NCBI GenBank assembly: GCA_029667085.1
Contig: JARUHJ010000003.1
Span: 434,001 to 498,000, forward strand
Direction of reading: 5' to 3'
DNA: 64,000 bases
Origin: Deltaproteobacteria bacterium IMCC39524
GTDB taxonomy: Bacteria; Desulfobacterota; Desulfuromonadia; Desulfuromonadales; BM103
Below are positions 12,410-46,562 of this stretch, one piece after another (within the stretch, counting starts at the first letter, position 1; every line of letters begins with the position of its first letter). Under the pieces are notes generated by a model. The model did not search any database. It worked only from the letters and a program-made list of their open reading frames with translations, and had not been told where the DNA came from. Both the position numbers and the translations under genes were made by a program.

Positions 12410-12488
12410 CCCGCCCCTGAAAAGTTTAAAGGTTCTGGCCCGCGAGTTTTGTCCTTACGACGGATCATACAGGAGAAAGGGGTTTGCA

Positions 12489-12968
12489 ATGAAACGATTG
12501 ATTCGTGCCGGAACCGTCGCTGCGAAGGCACTTCTGGCCTCGAACGCTGGGGCTCTTCCGGTCGGTGCAGCGGCCCCTGATTTTAAGGCCATGTCGACCC
12601 GTGGGGAGTTCATCCTCAGCCAGGCCCTGGAGAAGGGGCCTGTCGTTCTCGCCTTGTACTATGCCGACTTCACCCCTGGCTGAAGCAGTGAAATGAAGGC
12701 TTTTCAAAACGAACTCGAACGTTTTGAAAAGCTCGGCGTCCAGGTTCTGGGCGTAAGTGGCGACGCTCTGGAAACCCACAAAGATTTTGTCACCAAGCTC
12801 GGTTTGCACTTTTCGTTGCTGGCCGACGACGGCACAATCCGTAAGCTTTATGGGAGCGGTCGAATCACCTACTTAATCGATTCGTCAGGTTTTATTCGCT
12901 ATGTTCATAAGGGAATGCCAGGCAACGATAAGCTGATTCAGGAAAGCGGTAAGCTGCGGTCTTCTTGA
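12489..12968 (+). CDS. Peroxiredoxin with UGA-encoded selenocysteine (candidate selenoprotein)
   Basis: I read this as one gene of 159 residues from the ATG at 12489 to the TGA at 12966, with an in-frame TGA at 12681-12683 read as Sec65. The N-terminal part has VGAAAPDFKAMSTRGEF and VVLALYYADFTPG; the next codon is TGA, then SSEMKAFQNELERFEKLGV, VLGVSGD, FSLLADDGTIRKLYG, YLIDSSGFIRYVHKG. In AhpC/TSA-Bcp peroxiredoxins the residue after TPG is the peroxidatic Cys, exactly where TGA stands. Both halves keep the same frame and family sequence. A strong hairpin starts 15 bases after the TGA (see next entry). The first 20 residues are basic then hydrophobic, perhaps an export signal. Without selenocysteine it would be a broken gene; that is the only serious alternative. 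Confidence 0.88.
12699..12732 (+). promoter_or_regulatory. Candidate SECIS hairpin of the peroxiredoxin gene
   Basis: Arms GCTTTTCAAAACG (12699-12711) and CGTTTTGAAAAGC (12720-12732) are perfect complements, 13 base pairs, closing an 8-base loop AACTCGAA. The loop begins 28 bases after the TGA at 12681-12683, inside the distance range known for bacterial SECIS elements (roughly 16-37). If the top G-C pair is open, the loop starts with G as SelB recognition prefers. The hairpin lies wholly in coding sequence, as expected for bacteria. Confidence 0.8.
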
Positions 12969-12982
12969 GTCGTGCTGGCGTA

Positions 12983-45731: not shown

Positions 45732-45971
45732 TCAGTTCTCATTTGCTGGTGTATTGTTGCGCACGATAAGAAGTTTAGCAAAAGCCAGCAATATGGGCCC
45801 GCCGTGCATAAACAGATCAAAGATATCCACAGGGCGAGTCAGCAGGCCATTGGCAAGCATGCGTAATTTCTCAACCAAGTGGGGTTCAGGTTTGAAAGGC
45901 GTCAGGGCCAGAAGGATTGCCACAGGCAGCAGAAATGTCCAGGGTATGGCGTTGAAAAACTTTCTGATCAT
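45732..45971 (-). CDS. Small membrane protein upstream of the permease
   Basis: 79 residues. Two hydrophobic segments: AIPWTFLLPVAILLALTPF and HGGPILLAFAKLLIVRN. Its stop lies ten bases before the permease ATG, so the two form one unit. Homologues of this type are often annotated with RND or permease genes, but I cannot name a family. Confidence 0.72.
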   Translation of the reverse strand: MIRKFFNAIPWTFLLPVAILLALTPFKPEPHLVEKLRMLANGLLTRPVDIFDLFMHGGPILLAFAKLLIVRNNTPANEN

Positions 45972-46097
45972 ATTTTACCCTTCTCCTCTCCGGTTTTGTC
46001 GATTGCTATCATGCATGATTGAACAGTCCTGTCAAACAGGTTAAGCTGTGATATTGAATCACCCTTTAAGCCTCAACCTTATGAAAGGCACCTCTCA

Positions 46098-46562
46098 ATG
46101 AAAGTATATCTGATGCAGCATGCGCTTGCCTACTCTTCGGAAGAAGATCAGGCAAGACCCCTCAGTCCGGCGGGTATTAATCAGGCAAAAGCTGCCGCAA
46201 AGGGTATCAAGCGTCTCGGCCTGACCTTTGACCTGATCGTGACCAGCCCCAAACGGCGCGCGCACCAGACGGCAGCGCTGATTGCCGAGGGAGTGCGTTT
46301 CCCGCATAGTGACATCCTGACCACGGAGGCCGTGTTGCCGCAGAGCCAACCGCAAGAGCTTCTCGACCTGCTACAGAAAGAGTCGCCACAAAGCAGCGTC
46401 CTGGTCGTTGGTCACATGCCCCAGCTGGGGAGATTGAGTTCGCAGCTATTACAGGGGGGAGAGATGCATTTCGAAAATGCCGGTCTGGCCTGCTTCGAGA
46501 TCTCTTCCTCACACCCCGCCCGCCTGGAATTTTCGCTTACCACACAACAGCTGGCCGTCTGA
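46098..46562 (+). CDS. sixA: Phosphohistidine phosphatase SixA
   Basis: 154 residues of the histidine-phosphatase branch. VYLMQHALAYSSEEDQARPLSP has the variant RHG motif as MQHA, where R is replaced by Q; the second catalytic His is in SVLVVGHMPQLGRL; TSPKRRAHQTAALI gives the conserved Arg. SixA dephosphorylates phospho-His of phosphotransfer domains or of NPr. QHA in place of RHG occurs in SixA relatives of this lineage. Upstream ribosome signal is weak. Confidence 0.9.
   Translation: MKVYLMQHALAYSSEEDQARPLSPAGINQAKAAAKGIKRLGLTFDLIVTSPKRRAHQTAALIAEGVRFPHSDILTTEAVLPQSQPQELLDLLQKESPQSSVLVVGHMPQLGRLSSQLLQGGEMHFENAGLACFEISSSHPARLEFSLTTQQLAV

Follow-up and report, generated by a model that had tools for sequence, protein, structure and literature searches.

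Within the window, the 64,000-nucleotide stretch of the Deltaproteobacteria bacterium IMCC39524 genome analyzed here, a peroxiredoxin-like gene on the forward strand starts at an ATG (position 12489), ends on a TGA (12966-12968) and contains a single internal stop, a TGA at residue 65 immediately following a TPG motif (Table 1). The encoded protein matches the Pfam AhpC-TSA family with 95.8 bits (cut-off 26) over residues 25-139, a span that covers both sides of the internal TGA and bears out an earlier, sequence-only reading in which family sequence continues across it; that reading had also put the TGA at the place of the peroxidatic Cys, as our alignment with 85 Cys-containing homologues confirms. 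The sequence context of the predicted selenocysteine (Sec, U) is UxxE, and the chain is devoid of Cys. An AlphaFold model of the joined chain (pLDDT 88.6, pTM 0.81) adopts a peroxiredoxin (thioredoxin-type) fold, whose structure matches are of the Bcp/AhpE type, with Z scores of 22.7-23.4 (3drn, 5enu, 5epf, and 1xxu). Purine-rich stretches precede most of the listed starts in the Sec peroxiredoxin family, and an NmrA/DUF2867 gene precedes the gene studied here, a pairing kept in five genomes of the genus (loci L009-L013, with L066 the same place as L013).

Table 1. Features of the peroxiredoxin locus, in window coordinates
Feature	Coordinates	Strand	Basis
Ribosome-binding-site-like AGGAGAAAGGGG	12471-12482	+	Sequence
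Predicted selenocysteine peroxiredoxin CDS, 159 aa with TGA read through	12489-12968, stop included	+	Frame, Pfam, homologues
N-terminal stretch, signal-peptide-like in most relatives, weak here	12489-12551	+	Hydropathy; low pLDDT at residues 1-19
Tyr58 at the motif-proline place of PxxxT(S)xxC	12660-12662	+	Alignment with Cys homologues
Thr62 of the TxxU motif	12672-12674	+	Thr or Ser in 56/56 Sec-clade rows
UGA codon of predicted Sec65, peroxidatic position	12681-12683	+	Aligns with the Cys of 85/85 Cys homologues
SECIS-like hairpin	arms 12699-12711 and 12720-12732, loop 12712-12719	+	Sequence, fold, codon and pairing tests
Arg125, catalytic Arg position, preceded by short loop	12861-12863	+	Arg in 56/56 Sec-clade rows

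Eight TGA-interrupted frames, this one included, remained in the window after filtering, and by eye no other one shows a single family on both sides of its stop. Among them, 45879-46562 was rejected as a recoded frame, as by eye it seems to be a SixA-like gene that starts past its TGA.

The in-frame TGA among homologues

In a search of 195 genomes, comprising the organism's own and those of relatives, all 55 homologous places scoring at least 97.6 bits, spread over 41 genomes, carry the in-frame TGA, and homologues in other genomes have it from 92% identity downward. One-by-one inspection of 49 of these places found TGA, and not TAA or TAG, at the Sec site of every one; locus L037 was left out of the counts, giving 48 family rows. 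This locus has no Met at the usual start, leaves the family after ~110 residues and is broken or mis-assembled. The best stop-free place among the matches listed in the same search reaches 70 bits. Across 395 genomes drawn from the phylum, TGA is found in 12 of 12 places of at least 98 bits, half of them (six) in genomes not hit in the 195-genome search, and the best TGA-free place scores 84.1 bits, as against at least 97 bits for members of the clade described below. Both searches were run with Cys substituted for Sec in the query, so Cys versions would have scored equally well.

Four genes of the Sec peroxiredoxin type are present in the organism's own genome. From a scan of named genomes, the best 80 of 564 loci were taken and comprise 11 Sec loci (L066-L076) and 69 Cys loci at no more than 43% identity, a ratio that favors Cys forms because one of the two search patterns contained Cys; nine of the 11 Sec loci had already been counted in the genome searches. 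The 11 stem from Desulfuromonadales or Deltaproteobacteria records, including isolate IMCC39146, Geomobilimonas luticola, one Desulfobulbaceae, and one Nitrospirae. The clade member in the Nitrospirae-titled record (L076), the other named ones being Desulfobacterota-type, would reflect either horizontal transfer or a binning error. The scanned viral contigs yielded no relative. TAA or TAG codons inside some matches (L029, L032, L041, L044, and L050) were considered as a second recoded stop and dismissed as alignment run-on beyond natural stops.

Selection upstream and downstream of the TGA

A single in-frame stop in an otherwise ordinary family is also what would be seen if a defunct Cys peroxiredoxin had acquired an ordinary nonsense mutation. 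Against such decay stand the unanimity of TGA in the 55 close matches and its identity in the 49 inspected, the distance of the stop-free matches (70 and 84 bits at best), and the evidence for selection on the 3' part. In all seven pairs compared, the parts before and after the TGA both have a dN/dS ratio below 1; in four pairs of relatives of the window gene it amounts to 0.17-0.36 for the 3' part and 0.12-0.52 for the 5' part, and the least clear pair, L040-L043, gives 0.51 and 0.80 on few changes. As judged from these ratios, purifying selection acts on both sides of TGA 12681. A nonsense pattern with 3' decay in close relatives, the outcome that the sequence-only reading had set against its own proposal, is contradicted both by the low 3' ratios and by retention of the catalytic Arg in 56 of 56 clade members. 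We accordingly give a pseudogene next to no credence.

A hairpin downstream of the UGA

The perfect 13-bp stem with an 8-base loop that had been noticed 15 bases past the TGA is present as described: it consists of 13 Watson-Crick pairs, and its loop lies 28 bases from the UGA, with the stem-loop just downstream of the codon, as is characteristic of bacterial SECIS elements. In the folding check, the segment 12672-12745 folds at -24.6 kcal/mol compared with a mean of -17.05 for shuffled sequences (z -2.51), a value reached by one of 200 shuffles.

Silent codon choice was compared in 46 non-identical Sec rows, with codons elsewhere in the same genes as background. Ala codon 6 is GCT in 39 of 43 rows versus 106 of 632 codons elsewhere, Phe codons 7 and 14 are TTT in 40/46 and 39/42 versus 110/257, Gln 8 is CAA in 33/45 versus 54/268, Glu 15 is GAA in 32/35 versus 176/336, and Lys 16 is AAG in all 27 rows versus 186/345; at each of these six codons, the preferred silent base is the one that completes a Watson-Crick pair in the stem. 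In the same 46 sequences, 88.3% of the stem cells are paired, as opposed to 26.6-59.5% when the register is slid by one to three columns, and the numbers of paired cells and double-change cells as well as the covariation score exceed those of 500 out of 500 shuffles, although the corresponding p-values are nominal because the Sec rows are related by descent. Pairs with double changes and further pair types show no clear excess (58 and 46 of 500 shuffles as high, respectively), and both are higher in the register slid by -1 than in the true one (7 vs 5 and 18 vs 17); the RNAalifold consensus over the 46 sequences is weak (-1.5 kcal/mol). Taken at the level of sequence comparison, the codon and pairing tests support a hairpin beyond what conservation of the protein would entail. 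An Rfam search of 12480-12980 returned no family at an E value of 1 or better, in a collection that may be without a bacterial SECIS model.

At the place of the hairpin, the 48 Sec rows form on average 11.54 of the 13 pairs and fold at a mean of -17.0 kcal/mol, compared with 5.51 pairs (range 1-11) and -10.9 kcal/mol in 85 Cys rows, a difference that is not corrected for composition, the Cys controls having been taken from other genomes, which differ in base composition. In eight more distant Sec rows, which lie outside the stem definition (mean 7.88 pairs, range 6-9; -18.8 kcal/mol), the exact 13-bp register does not apply, and the hairpin that they keep differs in its inner shape; four Sec rows of other types give 5.75 pairs and -15.2 kcal/mol. 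Under the bSECISearch rule for bacterial SECIS elements, a G opens the apical loop. All 46 rows have a G in column 31; it closes the stem in the window gene, and it is at the same time codon position 1 of a residue that is well conserved. As 14 of the 46 rows have no base that pairs with it, this G may act as a loop base.

The location of the hairpin, where a SECIS element would be, also bears on a reading in which the UGA terminates a 64-residue peptide, as two genes or by regulated termination, with a restart at ATG 12693 yielding a 91-residue protein. The position of that ATG, nine bases past the TGA, would suit such a restart, but the Met is absent from several family rows (e.g., L033, L035, L042, and L045), and the joined chain is modeled confidently as one fold that neither half would be expected to hold whole. 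Separate products are, in our estimation, highly unlikely.

Selenocysteine machinery of the genome

The genome (3.78 Mb, 19 contigs, 99.99% complete) encodes a tRNA-Sec with anticodon tca (75.3 bits, cut-off 47), and its selA (620.6 bits), selB (405.5 bits), and selD (361.8 bits) genes are grouped at C2:158492-162931 (L059, L062, and L063). The full set that the sequence-only reading had proposed to look for is present, and the absence of selB and selC, which it had named as the finding that would count against a selenoprotein, does not apply. The selD gene itself has one in-frame TGA, so SelD too is probably a selenoprotein. A second tRNA-Sec family match (C2:215095-215171, L002), 77 bases long and at 48.2 bits just above the cut-off, is probably an ordinary tRNA. 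Among the 41 clade-carrying genomes, 39 have selA, the exceptions being G004 (59% complete) and G095 (96% complete). Co-occurrence with selA was set aside as proof of Sec usage: it is weak evidence because the gene is common in the group, being present also in 128 of 154 non-carriers.

The sequence of this single gene, taken alone, would be compatible with UGA being decoded as another amino acid, either Trp or, by near-cognate read-through, Cys. Yet UGA is the terminal stop in 26 of the 48 family genes, including the one in the window (TAA in 15 and TAG in 7, the internal stop being TGA), and the genome has the full Sec trait alongside the hairpin evidence, all of which leaves such decoding very improbable. 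We infer, on strong indirect evidence, that Sec is inserted at UGA 12681; the selenoprotein assignment of the earlier reading gains support from the Sec genes, the invariable TGA in close matches, selection on the 3' part, and the hairpin tests.

A Sec-only clade with a modified active-site motif

In a tree of 106 proteins (56 Sec rows of the clade, 4 other Sec rows, and 46 of the 85 Cys homologues, including 30 picked at random among the 69 of named genomes), the 56 Sec rows fall on one side of a branch of length 0.8 with support 100/100, the tree being midpoint-rooted and its bootstrap not fully settled. Four other Sec peroxiredoxins of the phylum (L165, L168, L170, and L172) are placed among the Cys proteins, which suggests repeated origins of Sec within this fold.

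An alignment of 145 proteins sets the clade apart at several active-site positions. All 85 Cys rows have Pro seven residues before the Sec/Cys, compared with 8 of 56 clade rows, where its replacements are Tyr (32), Phe (15), and Ile (1); each of the 56 retains Thr or Ser at -3 as well as the Arg. No clade member has a resolving Cys at +5 from the peroxidatic position, whereas 45 of the 85 Cys homologues carry a Cys there, and 46 of the 56 chains are Cys-free. The loop running from Tyr121 to the Arg measures 4-5 residues in the clade versus 10-18 in the 85 Cys homologues. By alignment and search, the clade is Sec throughout, has no Cys version among the genomes searched and has mostly lost the motif proline.

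N-terminus and gene neighborhood

A home-made hydropathy rule for signal peptides (threshold 1.6) is passed by 34 of the 48 family rows. The window protein fails it with 1.40, having a Lys within the hydrophobic core, and its nearest relative (L010) likewise stays below the threshold; L028, L053, and L054 fail probably because the chosen start lies too far downstream. Most clade members would therefore appear to be exported, and the window copy doubtfully so. The rows of lowest N-terminal hydropathy (L041, L044, L047, L049, and L050) all have the motif Pro but form one branch; it is found in 3 of the 43 remaining family rows. On the branch without a hydrophobic N-terminus, L041, L044, L050, and L072 adjoin a frame that by eye resembles a serine recombinase/resolvase.

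Among the neighbors of clade members are an MsrA gene beside L048 (tested) and L015 (by likeness to the L048 neighbor), an MsrB-MsrA fusion gene beside L032, a ferritin-like gene beside L026, L040, L043, L046, and L070 (the last being the same place as L043, and the one tested), and a pyridoxamine-phosphate-oxidase-like gene beside eight loci (L070 tested). The MsrA/B and ferritin neighbors fit a role in oxidative defense. A diverged sub-branch with the motif YTPAUKTTT (L042, L045, L053, and L054) has a divergent neighbor of one cluster at all four loci, which at L042 comprises an FMN-binding domain after membrane-like segments and is a possible electron donor.

The active-site data leave some room for a selenoprotein other than a peroxidase. 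Pfam AhpC-TSA includes non-peroxidase relatives too, and the loss of the Pro in 48 of 56 members together with the absence of Cys from 46 could indicate another thioredoxin-fold enzyme, such as a selenol-based reductase of a different substrate. The retention of Thr/Ser and Arg in all 56, the peroxiredoxin identity of the nearest solved structures listed, and the oxidative-damage genes adjoining some relatives all speak against it, and we consider it unlikely, if less so than the alternatives above.

Proposed mechanism and implications

Taken together, the gene very probably encodes a selenoprotein in which UGA 12681 is decoded as Sec by SelB, tRNA-Sec, and the hairpin, and which would function as a 1-Sec peroxidase with an outside reductant. 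In the proposed mechanism, SelB and tRNA-Sec(UCA) would recognize the mRNA hairpin at 12699-12732 and deliver Sec at the UGA; within the thioredoxin-fold peroxiredoxin, the selenolate of Sec65, aided by Thr62 and Arg125, would attack peroxides, and the resulting selenenic acid would depend for its reduction on a thiol or another reductant from outside. As the chain has no Cys, an internal or intersubunit selenenylsulfide would not form and an outside reductant would be needed. The peroxidase activity, the reductant, and the place of action of the Sec65 protein are all presumptive. More tentatively, and with considerable doubt, we suggest that the clade could be obligately Sec, Cys-free, and mainly exported, with selenium making the Pro dispensable and a donor other than thioredoxin, e.g., a cytochrome or flavin system of these bacteria, re-reducing the enzyme outside the cytoplasm.

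Sec enzymes usually have close Cys cousins. The clade contrasts with this pattern, in that no TGA-free match above 84.1 bits was found among the 195 and 395 genomes. An all-Sec clade, mostly without Cys and the motif Pro, would lend itself to testing the role of selenium in peroxiredoxin chemistry and the way in which a Cys-free selenoperoxidase is recycled. Ordinary annotation would probably split the window gene at its internal stop; clade members may be annotated as fragments, and their loss in routine annotation is plausible, since the window protein stays below every NCBIfam cut-off.

Comparison with known peroxiredoxins and selenoproteins

PrxU (NCBIfam NF040737), a selenoprotein, in line with the title of a 2001 work by Sohling, is likewise an AhpC/TSA-type peroxiredoxin. 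Its model covers 233 positions, compared with 159 residues of the Cys-free window protein, which at 44.9 bits falls short of the cut-off of 270. Bcp/PrxQ and AhpE, the latter a 1-Cys type according to its structure-entry title, share the fold, the Thr, and the Arg; they differ in having Cys rather than Sec, Pro at -7, a longer loop ahead of the Arg and, in 45 of the 85 Cys homologues, a Cys at +5. The PrxQ/Bcp equivalogs are not reached by the window protein (NF006960, 56.5 vs 140; NF053650, 46.1 vs 260).

In the excerpted literature, Sec peroxiredoxins with a TxxU motif and PF00578 constitute a published family (PMC13188914, PMC1794560, PMC1088965, PMC2398784), known in Deltaproteobacteria including Geobacter metallireducens and Anaeromyxobacter dehalogenans (PMC1794560). 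The window gene shares with it the UGA at the peroxidatic position, PF00578, and the Thr ahead of the Sec, and therefore belongs to a known kind. PxxxTxxU is termed highly conserved in Sec peroxiredoxins in the excerpt of PMC13188914, whereas Tyr, Phe, or Ile replaces the Pro in 48 of our 56 clade members, and the window gene keeps TxxU without the Pro. A clade that is Sec throughout, mostly without the motif proline, and mostly Cys-free is not described in the excerpts of PMC13188914, PMC1794560, PMC1088965, PMC1914089, PMC1242214, and PMC2398784, and it may be published. The peroxiredoxin-like thiol:disulfide oxidoreductase selenoproteins, as excerpted from PMC1088965 and PMC13188914, have PF00578 and Sec in common with the window protein but carry the motif UxxC, in contrast to the UxxE of the Cys-free chain described here.
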